A DNA stretch of 64,000 bases from Caulobacteraceae bacterium (lineage in GTDB: Bacteria; Pseudomonadota; Alphaproteobacteria; Caulobacterales; Caulobacteraceae), in contig JAUJMO010000001.1 of assembly GCA_030446805.1 (NCBI GenBank), positions 763,241-827,240 of the forward strand, in the 5' to 3' direction. Shown in pieces: positions 39,780 through 49,305 of the stretch (positions are counted from its first letter, which is position 1; each line of letters starts with the position of its first letter). A program made the translations under genes and the position numbers. Below the pieces are notes generated by a model, which was not told the DNA's origin, did not search any database, and was given only the letters and a program-made list of their open reading frames with translations.

Positions 39780-40094
39780 TTACGCTCCCAGCTTGATGGA
39801 GATGTCCACGCCGGCCGACAGATCGAGCTTCATGAGCGCATCAACCGTCTGGGGCGTGGGGTCCACGATGTCGAGCACGCGCTTGTGGGTGCGCATCTCG
39901 AACTGCTCGCGTGACTTCTTGTGGACGTGCGGCGAGCGCAGCACGGTGAATTTCTCCAGCCGGGTGGGCAGCGGGATGGGGCCGCGCACCTGCGCGCCCG
40001 TCCGCTTGGCCGTGTTCACGATCTCCCGGGTCGAGTGGTCGAGGACCCGGTGATCGAACGCCTTCAGGCGTATGCGGATATTCTGCCGATCCAT
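39780..40094 (-). CDS. rpsJ: 30S ribosomal protein S10
   Basis: A 104-residue S10, which also serves as the NusE transcription factor: [97 protein letters not shown]. First gene of the S10 operon. ATG 40094 is the family start; an upstream open frame to 40244 lies in the leader and was rejected. Promoter at 40328-40356. Confidence 0.98.
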
Positions 40095-40182
40095 GTCGCT
40101 CTCGACGCTTCCCAAACCATTCAAAGACCGATCGGCCCCGAACGCGAACTCAGCCCCGAAGGACCGTCCACATCGCGAGATC

Positions 40183-40219
40183 GCAAAACAAAGACCCGCC
40201 GCGGTGGACCGCGGGGGTC
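40183..40219 (-). promoter_or_regulatory. Terminator-like hairpin (possible attenuator) in the rpsJ leader
   Basis: On the minus strand GACCC-CCGCGGT-CC-ACCGCGG-C-GGGTC forms a 12-bp stem with one bulge, followed by TTTGTTTT. It lies downstream of the S10 promoter and about 90 bp before the rpsJ ATG, where it could terminate transcription conditionally. In E. coli, L4 causes termination at such a leader hairpin. An alternative is that it simply ends transcripts from the upstream DUF2807 gene and a second rpsJ promoter lies closer; none was seen. Confidence 0.6.
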
Positions 40220-40275
40220 GAAACCAGAGGGGCGGAAGCTCCACCCTATGCAGGCTACGTTTTGCGAACCGCGTC

Positions 40276-40304
40276 TAACGTCTGAGCAATCGACTCAGGC
40301 GTTA
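40276..40304 (-). other. Second hairpin in the rpsJ leader
   Basis: TAACG-T-CTGAG / CTCAG-G-CGTTA: ten base pairs with one internal mismatch and a 7-nt loop. It would form at about nt 17-45 of the leader. With the terminator-like hairpin downstream it gives the leader the two-element layout expected of a regulated ribosomal-protein leader. Confidence 0.55.
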
Positions 40305-40327
40305 CGGCCGGTCCAACAGAAGGGCGG

Positions 40328-40356
40328 TAGATACCCGCCCCTCCCCCCCCCGTCAA
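40328..40356 (-). promoter_or_regulatory. Sigma70-type promoter of the S10 operon (rpsJ)
   Basis: On the minus strand -35 TTGACG (40356-40351), a 17-bp spacer and -10 TATCTA (40333-40328). The spacer begins with a run of G; nine G residues occupy 40351-40343. Start of transcription is expected near 40320, giving a leader of about 226 nt. The discriminator after the -10 is GC-rich (CCGCCC), as in promoters sensitive to ppGpp. Confidence 0.8.
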
Positions 40357-40384: not shown

Positions 40385-41203
40385 TCAGCGCCCGATGATC
40401 ACGTCCCCGCTGCCGGCGATCGAGCGCCGAACGGGGCCGGCCACCTGGCCCACGCGCACATCGCCCGAGCCCATCACGGAGGCGTTCACGCTGGCCGCCG
40501 TGCCGCCGATGCGCACATCGCCGCTGCCCACGATGCTGGCGCTGACCGGGCCGGTGCGACCCGCGTTGACCACCACATCGCCCGAGCCCGCGATGGAGGC
40601 GTCCACCGCGCCGGCGACCGAGGCGACGTAGATGTCCCCGGACCCTGCGATGGAAGCGTCCAGCGGTCCGGCTACGGGTCCCAGGCGGACGTCGCCGGAG
40701 CCGGCCAGGGAGATCTCCGCCTGGCGAGAGGCGCCAACGAACACCGCGCCTGAACCCGCCGAGGACACCTCGAGCTCACCGGCGACGTTGCCTGCGCGGA
40801 TCTCGCCGCAGCCGGCCTGGGACAACTCGAGGCTGCTGGTCCGGCCGATGGAGCCGTAGACCGCCCCGCCGGCGCCGACTTGTGCGTCCAAGGGAACGCG
40901 CGCGGTGATCACCGGCAGTTGGTTGATCGGCACGCGCCCGATCCCGCGGATGCGCACGACGCCGCTGTCGCACCCCTCGATACGGCGCCTCAGGCCGCCG
41001 TCCACTTCCACCCCCGCGCGCGCCCGGCGCACCTGGAGCGCCGGCAATCCGGCGAGTCCCGGCGTCACCGTCACCTGGACATCGCGCCGCGCCTCGGGGA
41101 TGACGACCAGCCGCGCGGCGGCGTCCTCGATCTCAAGCTCCTGCGCCTGCGCCGCACCGGCGCCCAGCGCCAGGGTCGCCGCCACCGCCAAGGTCGTCCG
41201 CAT
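40385..41203 (-). CDS. Secreted DUF2807 (GIN-domain) protein with ~20-residue repeats
   Basis: A 272-residue protein with a signal peptide (MRTTLAVAATLALGAGAAQAQ). The mature protein is a DUF2807/putative auto-transporter adhesin head (GIN) domain. Seven successive units contain GSG plus DV/AV/DI, for example SIAGSGDIYVASVAG and SIVGSGDVRIGG, predicting a right-handed beta-helix with one turn per repeat. A disulfide is possible between the cysteines near 78 and 132. It lies directly upstream of the S10 operon on the same strand, between that operon and the cupin gene. Confidence 0.85.
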   Translation of the reverse strand: MRTTLAVAATLALGAGAAQAQELEIEDAAARLVVIPEARRDVQVTVTPGLAGLPALQVRRARAGVEVDGGLRRRIEGCDSGVVRIRGIGRVPINQLPVITARVPLDAQVGAGGAVYGSIGRTSSLELSQAGCGEIRAGNVAGELEVSSAGSGAVFVGASRQAEISLAGSGDVRLGPVAGPLDASIAGSGDIYVASVAGAVDASIAGSGDVVVNAGRTGPVSASIVGSGDVRIGGTAASVNASVMGSGDVRVGQVAGPVRRSIAGSGDVIIGR

Positions 41204-41260
41204 GAGAGCCTCCTGTCCGCTATGCGAGCGACGTTAGGCCGGGCGCCCCGGCCATGCAGC

Positions 41261-42184
41261 TTAATTCGCGGTCATCTTGCCTTCGGGGTTGTCCCGACCA
41301 AGCTCGAAGGTCCGCTCGAACTTGGAGATGCGGTTCTCCACCAGTCCCGCCTTCTTCATGGCGACCGAGGCCGCCCACAACCCCGCCTGGGCCGCTATGG
41401 GCGTGCGCCGCAGATCGGGCGCGGGCCATCCCCAGCGTCGGATCACGCCGCTGGCGATGTGCGCGCCGCACTTCACGCGGGATGGCCAGGTCTGATAATC
41501 GGCCGAGAAGGAGACGTTGAACTCGCCCAGGTTGTCGACGCGGTGCGGCGCGTGGACGGGCCAGCAGGCCGCCATACCCGGCTCCAGGTCATAGACGGTG
41601 GCGGCGGCGTCCATCTCCCGCCGGTAAGGCAGATCCTCGGTTTTGAGCCGCATGGTGACCGCCTCCATATGCTCTTGCGGAGCATGGGCCTCGTCCTCCG
41701 GATAGATCCACAGGCGCTTGCGCCCGCGCATGTGGAACAGCACCACCCCGGCCGGATCGGCGTGATAGGGCGTCTTGTTGCGGGGCGAGCTCAGGATCAG
41801 CTGGCCATAGACCTTGGCCGGTTTGAAACCGGGGATCATGTCGCGGAGCTCGGCGAAAGCTGCGTGCACCTGCCGACCCAGCTCGGGATAGACCGTGTCG
41901 GCCTGGCGAAGATTGACCCAGAGCCGGCCGCCCTTGACCGCCTCCAGGACGGCGGCCCCGTCCGCCCCGCCGCGACGGCCGGTCCTCAGGGTGGACTGTG
42001 CCTGGGCGTCGTAATCCCACACGTTGATGTCCATCAACTCGGCGGGATAGCGGTCCAGCAGAGCGGTCAGCGCCTCATCCTCCACCAGTCCGGAGGCCCC
42101 CACCCGGTGCTGAAAGGCCATGGGGGCCTTCAGGAAGGCCTCCTGGAGTTCGTCGGACCAGTGTGGGATCAGCCGTTCGGTCAT
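41261..42184 (-). CDS. Cupin-like (JmjC-related) Fe(II)/2OG oxygenase candidate
   Basis: A 307-residue protein. The centre has GQLILSSPRNKTPYHADPAGVVLFHMRGRKRLWIYP, where H141-x-D143 fits the first two iron ligands of cupin-like oxygenases, and KRLWIYP is typical of Cupin_8/JmjC-like folds. ACWPVHAPHRVDN supplies the third ligand (H211 or H214). Such enzymes hydroxylate proteins, RNA or small molecules; the substrate is unknown. It follows the GNAT gene by 9 bp, so the two are probably one operon and may act on related substrates. Confidence 0.7.
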   Translation of the reverse strand: MTERLIPHWSDELQEAFLKAPMAFQHRVGASGLVEDEALTALLDRYPAELMDINVWDYDAQAQSTLRTGRRGGADGAAVLEAVKGGRLWVNLRQADTVYPELGRQVHAAFAELRDMIPGFKPAKVYGQLILSSPRNKTPYHADPAGVVLFHMRGRKRLWIYPEDEAHAPQEHMEAVTMRLKTEDLPYRREMDAAATVYDLEPGMAACWPVHAPHRVDNLGEFNVSFSADYQTWPSRVKCGAHIASGVIRRWGWPAPDLRRTPIAAQAGLWAASVAMKKAGLVENRISKFERTFELGRDNPEGKMTAN

Positions 42185-42193
42185 GCGCGCCGC

Positions 42194-43348
42194 CTATGCG
42201 TTCGAAGAAAGGGCCGGGCCGCGGCGGCCGGCCTTGACGAAGGCGTCCGCGGCTCCGCCCAGCCAGGCGGCGGGACGGGTTTCGCAGGCGGTGATGATCT
42301 CGAACCGTCGCCGCATCCGCTCGCGGACCTCCGCCACCCTGGTCAGGGCCGGCGCAGCCGCCAAGGCGGCGTCGGCTGCGCGACACGAAACCCTGCGCCA
42401 GCCGTCCAGGTCGAGGCCGCCCTCATACACCGGCTCCGCAGCGTCGGCGTAATGGCGCTTGTACGCCTCCCCTTCGCTGCCGAAGTCCAGCTCAGTCAGG
42501 CCGGGGTCCTCGGCCGCGGCCTTGAAGAGCGAGATCATGAGCAGGGTTCCAGGCCCCCAACGGGCCACGTCGGGATCATAGGTCGGGAACCAGATGTGGC
42601 GAACCGGGCCCGCGCGGAGGTCCAACTCGGCCGCCAGCAGGCGTCCGCCGGCCCGCAGGGTCGCCAAACGTCCGCCGAATTCGGCGGTGCGTTCGGCCCA
42701 CAGGCGGCGCAGCAGGTCCCGCGTCCACCCGCAAGCGAAGACATCATGGCGAGCCGTGCGCCGATACTGGTCGCGTTTGTTGGCGATTACGAAGGACAGC
42801 AGGTCCGCGTCGTCCTCCATGCGGAACTCCAGCGCACCCAGATCCCGCTCCGCCGCACGGCGGGCCCGTTCCTTGTCCTTGAAGAACTTGCGCGTGGACG
42901 GCCGGGCGGACAGCCAGGCCTCCAGTCCCGCCGAAACGTCGGCCTTGAGCGCGGCGTGGGCGAAACAACGCCCGCTCTTGGGCGGCGCCGGGCCGACCAG
43001 CCCGTTGAAGCGGTAGCTGTCGCAGCCTGTCAGACGGATCACCTCGCGGAGGTCCACATCCGCTCCGGGCGCGGCGATCAGGCCGTGGTAGTCGCTCAAG
43101 GGCGCGCCAAGCGGCTGGGCCGCGCGACCCCGTCGCTGAAACGGCAGAAATCCCACCACCGCGCCGGCGCGCTCCACCACCGCCACGGCGGCGCCAGGCG
43201 CGACGCCATCGGCGGCCAAGGCGAAGTCGAGGCTGAAGAAAGGACTCCGGTAGGCGGAGGACGCGGCCGTGAAGCTCCGCCACAGCGCCCGCTCGCTCAA
43301 GGTCAGCGCTCCGGGCGCCAAGACCTCTACGCTCAGTTTTGTGCCCAT
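42194..43348 (-). CDS. GNAT-superfamily acyltransferase (BcsL/CelD-type)
   Basis: A 384-residue protein of the Acetyltransf_6 (CelD/BcsL) branch of GNAT enzymes: AVVGFLPFQRRGRAAQPLGAPLSDYHGLIA in the N-terminal half, RKFFKDKERARRAAERDLGALEF, and in the C-terminal GNAT core RAGGRLLAAELDLRAGPVRHIWFPTYDPDVARWGPGTLLMISLFKAAAEDPGLTELDFGSEGEAYKR. This type is often linked to exopolysaccharide modification; in Caulobacter one such protein, HfsK, modifies holdfast. Whether this is HfsK cannot be decided by eye. ATG 43348 gives the expected start; a much longer frame upstream is spurious. Confidence 0.75.
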   Translation of the reverse strand: MGTKLSVEVLAPGALTLSERALWRSFTAASSAYRSPFFSLDFALAADGVAPGAAVAVVERAGAVVGFLPFQRRGRAAQPLGAPLSDYHGLIAAPGADVDLREVIRLTGCDSYRFNGLVGPAPPKSGRCFAHAALKADVSAGLEAWLSARPSTRKFFKDKERARRAAERDLGALEFRMEDDADLLSFVIANKRDQYRRTARHDVFACGWTRDLLRRLWAERTAEFGGRLATLRAGGRLLAAELDLRAGPVRHIWFPTYDPDVARWGPGTLLMISLFKAAAEDPGLTELDFGSEGEAYKRHYADAAEPVYEGGLDLDGWRRVSCRAADAALAAAPALTRVAEVRERMRRRFEIITACETRPAAWLGGAADAFVKAGRRGPALSSNA

Positions 43349-43450
43349 CTGACCCGCCCCGGCTTCTGCGCCTGAGGGGCTGCAAACCCTGTGCCGGTTT
43401 CGCCTCCCAGGCGAGTCCGCCCGGCCGGATCCCGTCGATCCCGCACCGCG

Positions 43451-43475
43451 GGAGCGCAGGCTTCGGCGGCGCGTT
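43451..43475 (+). promoter_or_regulatory. Candidate general-stress promoter for the small disordered protein
   Basis: GGAGC at 43451-43455, 16 bp, then CGTT at 43472-43475: one mismatch from GGAAC-N16/17-CGTT. The ATG is at 43501, leaving a short leader with GGAG as ribosome site. Confidence 0.35.
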
Positions 43476-43500
43476 CTCTGTCCAGGACTGGAGACTCGAC

Positions 43501-43791
43501 ATGGCCGACGAGAACAAAGAACCCTTTCGGGGCGCACCGTCCGTCCAGCCTCGCGAGACGGAATCCGAGCGCGCGCAGGGCGGCGCCTATCCCAGCGAAG
43601 TCGACAATCGCCGCGCCTCCGGAACCGACGGCCAGCCGCCCCGCGCCGCAACCGAGCCCAAGGGCTCGGAGGGCAGCGCCGTTCCCGATCCTGGCCTGGC
43701 CTCCGACCGCCAGACCGCGCGCGAAACCCAGACTGATCCCGTAACCGGGGCTCCGATCGGTTCGCCGACTCCGGAGAACAATCAATCCTGA
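43501..43791 (+). CDS. Small disordered hydrophilic protein
   Basis: A 96-residue protein with no hydrophobic core: rich in Glu, Ser, Pro, Gly, Arg and Thr (KEPFRGAPSVQPRETESER; GTDGQPPRAATEPKGSEG). I recognise no domain. The ATG follows GGAG with 7-bp spacing. It is the only plus-strand gene in the block between the str and S10 operons. Composition and a promoter resembling the general stress type suggest a stress-protection protein, but that is inference. Confidence 0.6.
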   Translation: MADENKEPFRGAPSVQPRETESERAQGGAYPSEVDNRRASGTDGQPPRAATEPKGSEGSAVPDPGLASDRQTARETQTDPVTGAPIGSPTPENNQS

Positions 43792-43928
43792 GAGTTAGAC
43801 CCTTCCCGGCCGGTTTGGCAGGCGCCCTGTCGACCGTCCGTGGCTGGCGGCCGCTCCAGCCGGACCCCTGCCTGCAACGGCCTCCAAGTCGTCGGCGGAA
43901 CCGTTGGTGAGCCGGAACCCGGAAGCCT

Positions 43929-44633
43929 TCAGGTGACGGACAAGGCTCGATCCACGGCCGCTTCTGCGTGGATGACCGTGGTGTCGAACAGCGGAACCGG
44001 ACTGTCCTCCGCCCGGACCAGAAGCATGATCTCGGTGCAGCCGAGAATGACCGCCTCCGCCCCACGCTCGACCAACCGCTCGATGACCTCCCGGTAGGCG
44101 TGGCGAGAGGCCGCGTTCACTCGCCCCTTCACCAGTTCGTCGTAGATCACCCGGTGAACTCGCCCTCGGTCCTCCTCGTCGGGCACGAGTACTTCGAGCC
44201 CGTGCCGGTCCTCCAAACGGCCCTTGTAGAAGGCCTGCTCCATGGTGAAGGCGGTGCCCAGCAGCCCGACCCGCCGGAAGCCGGCTGTGCGGATCCGTTC
44301 GGCCGTGGGGTCCACGATGTGCAGAAGCGGTCGGTCGATGGCAGCCTGCACCTCGTCCGCCATGAGGTGCATCGTATTGGTGCAGATCAGCACGAAGTCC
44401 GCCCCGCCCCGCTCCAAACGCTGGGCGGCTTCGATCATCAGCGCCGTGGCTTGCGACCATCCGTCCGGGTGCTGCAGCGCTTCGACCTCGGCGAAGTCGA
44501 AGGACCACATGAGGCAACGGGCGGAATGAAGCCCGCCCAGGCGGCTGCGCACCTGCTCGTTGATGATGCGATAGTACTGGGCGGAGCTTTCCCAGCTCAT
44601 GCCGCCGATAAGTCCGATCACCTGCTGCGACAC
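43929..44633 (-). CDS. Aspartate/glutamate racemase family protein
   Basis: A 234-residue enzyme of the Asp/Glu racemase family (YgeA-like). Both catalytic cysteines are in place: C84 in ICTNTMHLM and C199 in ILGCTEIMLL. The N-terminal GLIGGMSWESSAQYYRIINE is canonical. It interconverts L- and D-forms of acidic or related amino acids in the cytoplasm without a cofactor. It is transcribed toward the small disordered gene with convergent ends. True substrate unknown; a hydantoin racemase relative is less likely. Confidence 0.9.
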   Translation of the reverse strand: MSQQVIGLIGGMSWESSAQYYRIINEQVRSRLGGLHSARCLMWSFDFAEVEALQHPDGWSQATALMIEAAQRLERGGADFVLICTNTMHLMADEVQAAIDRPLLHIVDPTAERIRTAGFRRVGLLGTAFTMEQAFYKGRLEDRHGLEVLVPDEEDRGRVHRVIYDELVKGRVNAASRHAYREVIERLVERGAEAVILGCTEIMLLVRAEDSPVPLFDTTVIHAEAAVDRALSVT

Positions 44634-44749
44634 CTCGGCCTCCGATCTTCCCGGAGAATGAGAGCAGCGGAGGGAGGTCGCCGCAAGGATCAGCGCCCGC
44701 CTCCATGCGATCCCGGAACGGCCGCCGCCGGCGCAGGTCCGCAGGCATG

Positions 44750-44780
44750 AAAAAGCCCCGCCGGAGCGATCCGGCGGGGC
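44750..44780 (-). terminator. Intrinsic terminator after tuf (end of the str operon)
   Basis: On the minus strand GCCCCGCCGGA-TCGC-TCCGGCGGGGC: an 11-bp perfect stem with a four-base loop and five T residues. It lies 26 bp after the tuf stop and ends the str operon before the five-gene block. Confidence 0.95.
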
Positions 44781-44805
44781 GGGTCTTCAGCAGGCTTGCG
44801 CCGGC

Positions 44806-45996
<1,191 letters not shown>

Positions 45997-49144: not shown

Positions 49145-49305
49145 TACGGCTCCGAGGTGGGCGTGTGCCGTTTGGCCGAGGCGCCCAGGGTAAAACTGTT
49201 TCGGCAAACGAAACGGCCCGGAACGCGCGCTTTGGGCGTTCCGGCGGGGACACAGCCCCATCTCGCTTGCTCCAGCCGGGGCGGACCCCGACCGGAGGAG
49301 GCGGC

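Follow-up and report, generated by a model that had tools for sequence, protein, structure and literature searches.

A conserved, structured leader RNA before the S10 operon recurs in Alphaproteobacteria and is probably a feedback switch for ribosomal-protein production

The S10 operon of a bacterium of the Caulobacteraceae is preceded by a conserved, structured leader RNA that recurs in Alphaproteobacteria and is probably a feedback switch for ribosomal-protein production. The leader lies on the minus strand of a stretch of 64,000 nucleotides (contig JAUJMO010000001.1, positions 763,241 to 827,240), which was analyzed as a whole and is called the window here; its parts are listed in Table 1. 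Its 5' end carries an irregular hairpin, motif B, which also stands before rpsL in much of the class. Judging from anatomy and comparative sequence, we lean toward the view that this is a cis-regulatory ribosomal-protein leader, undescribed in the sources that we searched, through which the S10 operon would be subject to autogenous feedback, exerted in Caulobacteraceae via termination or pausing.

Table 1. Features of the rpsJ leader, with positions in the window
Feature	Position	Strand	Basis
rpsJ (ribosomal protein S10 = NusE), first gene of the operon	39780..40094	-	ORF; Pfam Ribosomal_S10
BoxA-like sequence GGTCTTTGA	40121..40129	-	49 of 50 family leaders, GATCTTTGA in the remaining one
U-tract, TTTGTTTT then GC	40183..40192	-	sequence; T-score 3.84
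P3, 3' strand, within the U-tract	40190-40183	-	
Hairpin C, terminator-like stem of 11 pairs with one bulged C	40193..40219	-	fold; two-sided changes in relatives
Variable hairpin within P3, GGGTGGAGCTTCCGCCC	40230..40246	-	fold; sequence not conserved in alignment
P3, 5' strand GCAAAACG	40258..40265	-	window fold; permutation test, 50 relatives
Motif B	40266..40314	-	covariation in family and class; best R2 match in window
Motif B, P1	40314-40309/40271-40266	-	
Motif B, core GGCCGTA + TAGACGC	40309-40303 + 40277-40271	-	
Motif B, P2 hairpin	40304-40276	-	
Promoter-like sequence TTGACG-17-TATCTA	40328..40356	-	letters; TTGAC ahead of motif B in 50 of 50 family leaders

The rpsJ reading frame opens with an ATG at 40094, and the open reading frame upstream of it stops at 40385. 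Between them the promoter-like sequence named in the original prediction is present, with TTGACG at 40356-40351, a spacer of 17 nt, and TATCTA at 40333-40328. TTGAC is found no more than 75 nt 5' of motif B in all 50 leaders of the family; the -10 hexamer agrees with TATAAT at just three of six positions, and a generic sigma-70 scan returned nothing. If transcription starts about 7 nt past the -10 hexamer, the leader would be about 226 nt long, which agrees with the predicted length. The 142 nt from 40324 to 40183 fold to -64.9, compared with -48.6 +/- 3.7 in shuffles (z -4.4), and beat all 200 of 200 dinucleotide shuffles; the full 231 nt are less striking (z -2.1, with 5 of 200 shuffles folding equally well), and the fold of the 89 nt adjoining rpsJ is unremarkable (z +0.7). 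A search of the whole window against Rfam 15 gave nothing at gathering score, and the leader alone, at E up to 10, drew two subthreshold matches, both unrelated. In this genome, tuf and rpsJ, which are adjacent in many relatives, are separated by other genes (40385-44806), including those for a DUF2807 protein and an Asp/Glu racemase and a weak cupin-like match below cut-off. S10 itself is NusE.

The leader is a regular possession of the family. Of 100 relatives, 92 gave an S10 match; the window's family comprises 60 genomes (G000-G059), 52 of them with an S10 match and 51 with a readable rpsJ upstream. (At locus L051, from genome G001 of the same genus, the S10 match is split into two overlapping segments, one covering residues 1-20 and the other residues 16-104 with 69% identity, a pattern suggestive of a frameshift or misassembly.) The structure is kept in 50 of these 51 upstreams and covaries, as both the family alignments and RNAalifold indicate, so that a conserved, covarying RNA structure does stand upstream of ribosomal-protein genes here. 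All 50 follow a single plan: TTGAC and motif B come first, then a GCRRRACGA-like strand and, after a variable stretch, a hairpin with its U-tract; a second variable stretch leads to the BoxA-like site and rpsJ. The U-tract is mostly of the type CGTTTTTGCGG, L036 being the most divergent. The sequence further upstream differs between genomes, as judged by eye, and the conserved unit travels with rpsJ; Brevundimonas, Phenylobacterium, and Caulobacter are among the 80 matches listed by a pattern scan of named genomes, which identifies the family as Caulobacteraceae. The sole exception is G017 (L049), where tuf lies directly before rpsJ. The family alignments A1 and A2 hold 48 and 45 of the 50 leaders, near-duplicates having been omitted.

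An early hairpin at 40276-40304 had been pointed out in the original prediction; it is genuine, and it proves to be the P2 stem of a larger conserved element, motif B, extending from 40314 to 40266. Motif B begins about 14 nt past the -10 hexamer and forms one irregular hairpin in the class-wide alignment A3; the motif has 44 positions and the core consensus GGYNGUR / YARACRC. In the family, 97.0% of P1/P2 cells are paired versus 80.8% in shuffles, and 81 cells show double changes versus 31. A3, whose rows have the exact core and comprise 54 of 62 candidates (seven doubtful or long-looped rows and loops over 34 having been dropped), gives the same picture across the class: 92.0% of cells paired versus 71.9% in shuffles and 162 double-change cells versus 52, with no excess in the count of pairs showing any double change (10 versus 9.1 in shuffles, 185 of 500). 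The core positions Y and R pair as CG in 39 rows, UG in 11, and UA in 4. The scanner that we used at rpsL relies on pairing, and we therefore took pairing counts from instances picked by the exact core letters alone, which occur in 116 of 225 upstreams; the 51 rows labeled rpsJ f1 in that selection are the loci numbered below L056, one of which may be a chance core outside the family. Among the 49 rpsL instances so chosen, 41 form the first P1 pair (permuted fraction, 0.44) and 33 to 41 form each of the following four (0.53-0.63); in P2, the first pair forms in 48, the second in 41, and the third in 36 (0.71, 0.51, and 0.40). R2, the covariance model made from A3, places its top match within the window at this leader (E 5.9e-6; runner-up, 0.2), and a family-type pattern has a single match in the organism's own genome, namely, motif B here.

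Downstream of motif B lies hairpin C, described in the original prediction as a GC hairpin of 12 bp with a tail at 40183-40219. The hairpin and its tail are borne out by folding (-22.4 kcal/mol, z -3.45, with TTTGTTTT directly after it at 40192-40185); the 12 bp are not, since the stem has 11 pairs and a bulged C. RNAalifold predicts 19 pairs for the family, 13 with two-sided changes in at least one sequence, and hairpin C covaries. A stable GC hairpin with an immediate U-tract, the hallmark of an intrinsic terminator or attenuator, is thus present in the window and weaker in relatives, the U-tract scoring 3.84 here against a family median of 2.2; given so weak a tract in much of the family, hairpin C may pause polymerase instead of terminating transcription, or do neither. 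The strand just 3' of motif B pairs with the U-tract to form P3, with a mean duplex energy of -10.15 kcal/mol in 50 leaders compared with -9.02 +/- 0.25 when partners are permuted among them (0 of 5,000 as low); when one genome per genus was drawn (20 genera, 20 draws), 0 to 15 of 1,000 permutations were as low. The U-tract is thus a possible terminator tail and also a strand of a closing stem. The segment around the variable hairpin, folded alone, has a z of -0.9.

Hairpins with a T-rich tail occur 3' of motif B in 48 of the 51 rpsJ loci below L056 (211 of 1,020 shuffles), a figure that includes some other hairpins, such as one directly before BoxA; a raw stem count, made without a shuffle control, gives 50 of 50 family leaders. 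Outside the family, 16 of 42 rpsL leaders and 4 of 16 other rpsJ leaders have such a hairpin behind motif B (shuffles, 101 of 840 and 53 of 320, respectively), and a minority of this kind indicates that termination is not the common output of motif B. These shuffles used blocks of two bases, and those of the rpsL scanner were mononucleotide.

Beyond the family, motif B is chiefly an element of rpsL, the gene at the head of the str-S10-spc cluster. A family-only model, R1, gave matches outside the family that we read mostly as chance, but it pointed to one weak match before rpsL-rpsG-fusA in a distant low-GC genome (L099), a locus with no Rfam 15 match at E up to 1. A scanner combining core and pairing (threshold score, 8 or more) then recovered motif B in 42 of 120 rpsL upstreams, compared with 2 of 2,400 mononucleotide shuffles; the 42 are made up of 38 from the 70 class genomes outside the order, 2 of 8 in f4, and 2 of 4 in f5. 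The same scanner found none at rpsL in 32 of those 70 genomes, in 25 genomes of the window's family, in 5 of f3, or in 8 of f2, one genus of f2 having motif B at neither rpsL nor rpsJ. With R2, 65 of 337 class genomes have matches at E <= 0.05, a lower bound, because the search took about 18 candidates per genome under strict filters and missed the motif carriers G003 and G024. All 67 matches were placed by local DNA or by rpsL coordinates: 63 precede rpsL, two precede rpsJ (the window and G150), one is uncertain (L445), and one is unrelated and was set aside as chance (L461). In genomes outside the model input (handles G240 or higher), many of which belong to families that did feed R2, 40 of 40 matches precede rpsL. 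One match per genome, at ribosomal-protein genes, is the rule, and the matches precede long ribosomal-protein operons. Among 299 genomes drawn from the phylum without a breakdown by class, nine have matches at E <= 0.01; a single match, L424, falls outside the class and lies antisense in an open reading frame that we take, from its translation, to be recQ-like, and we regard it as chance. Against rRNA there was no significant model match, and the core scan gave nothing, so that mimicry of rRNA is not seen. Rfam 15 returned nothing at E up to 0.5 for 20 loci (18 rpsL and 2 rpsJ upstreams). We found no description of motif B in the open-access literature that we searched; it may be published in subscription journals or supplements, which lay outside that scope.

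Two rpsJ loci of f4 (L066 and L069) show a short form of the leader, with motif B no more than about 120 nt from rpsJ and no BoxA; L069 has an apparent hairpin and TTGTG near the ATG, and this short form is perhaps a translational version. Many draft contigs of the class stop 100 to 300 nt before rpsJ, with rpsL about 2.8 kb from the end of another contig, probably because duplicated tuf genes break assemblies.

The distribution of motif B between the two genes records its relocation. Its exact core stands at rpsJ in 50 genomes of the window's family, in 10 of 10 of f3, in 4 of 10 of f2 (all one genus), and in 2 of 9 of f4, where five of the nine rpsJ upstreams have only 170 to 217 nt readable. 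Thirty-eight genomes with both genes read have it at rpsJ and no rpsL score of 8 or more (26 of the window's family, 5 of f3, 4 of f2, 2 of f4, and G150), and none of the genomes with both genes read was seen to carry it at both. An exact core far upstream of rpsL in G080 is poorly paired and was taken as chance. Motif B is absent from 29 rpsL upstreams of the family (25 + 4). G017, whose rpsL region was read to test relocation, is the reverse case: tuf adjoins rpsJ, which has no motif B, and the motif is present at rpsL (L452), followed by GCAGAAACGA (a P3-like strand), a hairpin, and CGTTTTTGCGGA, with no BoxA. In G150, tuf is still before rpsJ and motif B lies between the two, and in G273 and G368, of the same family as G150, it is at rpsL. 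In G127, G139, and G181, where rpsL and rpsJ are far apart, motif B is found at neither gene. The simplest reading of these sequences is that the leader serves the S10 block, in which case an autogenous ligand should be encoded in that block. By eye, most of the 25 rpsL leaders of the family, which lack motif B, share a different conserved element, GGGCTGTGCCCGCCGGAACGCCCAAAGCGCGCGTYCCGG with a T-rich tail behind it (L139-L161; window 49205-49260, minus strand), which looks like a second, separate leader of the str operon.

The BoxA-like site, about 33 to 91 nt 5' of the rpsJ ATG in all 50 family leaders (the GATCTTTGA variant included), bears on a different reading of the leader. Its sequence is shared with the lineage's own rrn BoxA: in a scan of both strands, GGTCTTTGA lies upstream of 16S in four of four family rrn loci (three genomes), at about -210 to -245. 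The Rfam model found no 16S in the organism's own genome (G000); BoxA of the GGTCTTTGA form is absent from five rrn leaders of f2, and the f4 leaders are mixed. A count over both strands of 20 family rpsJ loci, among which L012 has GATCTTTGA, gives 19 occurrences of the 9-mer; 25 family rpsL upstreams have none. Leaders with motif B outside the family are mostly without BoxA. Elsewhere, TTTCTTTGA is found in one rpsJ upstream, and BoxA-like sequences are found in three rpsL upstreams from genomes outside the family (L184, L217, and L226), where GGTCTTTGA or GCTCTTTGA lies 28 to 62 nt 5' of rpsL. NusB-NusE binds BoxA, and autoregulation of NusE has been suggested from putative boxA sequences upstream of rpsJ in three genera, in a survey mainly of gammaproteobacteria (PMC5725501). 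This precedent, together with that of E. coli suhB in the same source, the presence of the site throughout the family, and the weak U-tracts of most relatives, invites the explanation that the leader acts on translation and not by attenuation, governing access of ribosomes to rpsJ, with NusB-S10 repressing at BoxA and the hairpins only protecting or shaping the RNA. We consider this unlikely, because it leaves the conservation of hairpin C, the U-tract, and P3 unexplained, along with the motif B leaders that have no BoxA, which are most of the other scanned loci. The present sites share with the suhB type of Nus-factor autoregulation a BoxA-like sequence upstream of the NusE/S10 gene but differ in that they are alphaproteobacterial, for the most part fall outside the 50-bp limit set in that survey, and are joined to a structured leader and hairpin (PMC5725501).

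A further proposal is that motif B senses no ribosomal protein and instead, through an effect on RNA polymerase or Nus factors, helps transcription to run the length of a very long ribosomal-protein operon. The start of the motif some 14 nt past the -10 hexamer, the long operons behind its matches, and, in one family, a BoxA in the same leader are all in keeping with such a role, which we nonetheless hold to be quite improbable: two rrn loci, where the element would be expected too, have no significant model match, and matches come as a rule once per genome, at ribosomal-protein genes. As an rrn-type antitermination element in particular, motif B is unsupported by those two loci.

The original prediction had looked to the S10 leader of E. 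coli, regulated by L4, for a related or convergent attenuation system. Its attenuation half has fared well, the anatomy being attenuation-like, conserved, and covarying, and attenuation at this leader is plausible from the sequence; kinship with the E. coli leader has not, since neither R2 nor the core letters find a match in the E. coli rpsJ leader. L4 controls attenuation and translation at the E. coli leader, which, like the present one, is a 5' leader of the S10 operon and places a terminator-like hairpin between rpsJ and the promoter. The two have no core in common, and here a sensor-like hairpin sits near the extreme 5' end, the U-tract takes part in P3, and much of the class has the same sensor ahead of rpsL. 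Homology, with L4-induced and NusA-assisted termination, is therefore very doubtful despite the common gene position, all the more as the motif is at rpsL rather than rpsJ in most of the class. Queried with the E. coli S10 leader (E up to 1), Rfam found nothing and thus seems to have no model of it. That hairpin C is a mere terminator of the upstream gene, whose reading frame stops 166 nt before it, in a leader with no regulatory role, is scarcely credible and largely contradicted, because TTGAC and motif B intervene in 50 genomes whose further-upstream sequence differs (by eye) and a similar module stands at rpsL in G017.

Other leaders resemble this one in position. Those at the head of the str operon include rpsL-leaders, Rickettsia among them, which Naville and Gautheret (2010, PMC2965389) describe as having no globally conserved feature, and the Pelagibacter rpsL motif of Meyer (2009, PMC2704228), in which a bulged P1 leads to a three-stem junction. 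Motif B, in contrast, has no Rfam match, recurs in much of the class, and is a single irregular hairpin, set apart from the Pelagibacter motif by that description. Among predicted leaders for all or part of the S10 operon, the L2 r-leader of Eckert and Weinberg (2020, PMC7247131) is from the same class but precedes rplB; a known Firmicutes S10 r-leader is named in their text. The 20 rows of their Table 1 contain no alphaproteobacterial rpsJ or rpsL leader (PMC7247131). Motif B leaders are likely a new r-leader.

The mechanism that we favor, autogenous feedback through the leader, would begin with motif B, which emerges from RNA polymerase before any other structure and would act as the sensor. 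It would most likely bind a ribosomal protein encoded in the S10/spc block; L4 is a guess, named because it is the known regulator of the S10 operon in E. coli (PMC10931766). In Caulobacteraceae, binding would tip hairpin C and its U-tract toward pausing or premature termination (the P3 strand beside motif B could capture the U-tract), and the outcome would be negative feedback acting on the S10 operon as a whole. Near rpsJ there may be a second input: BoxA, bound by NusB and S10/NusE, could allow an excess of S10 to reduce translation of the operon that encodes it or could aid transcription through the operon; from its place downstream of hairpin C, BoxA cannot relieve termination there. A constant sensor with changing output is usual for r-leaders and riboswitches. 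We entertain only tentatively the fuller scheme of a dual-input leader, in which a class-wide sensor, moved from rpsL to rpsJ more than once, is joined in Caulobacteraceae by a BoxA, so that S10, in its role as NusE, would share control of its own operon with a second ribosomal protein.

Leaders of ribosomal-protein operons are best known from gammaproteobacteria and Firmicutes, and the balancing of the main ribosomal-protein operon in Alphaproteobacteria seems little studied. With a covarying motif of 44 positions at the head of the str-S10-spc cluster, how that operon is controlled becomes a question that can be tested in Caulobacter. The shifts between rpsL and rpsJ are natural experiments, and if regulation is autogenous, they narrow the search for the regulator to the products of the S10/spc block.
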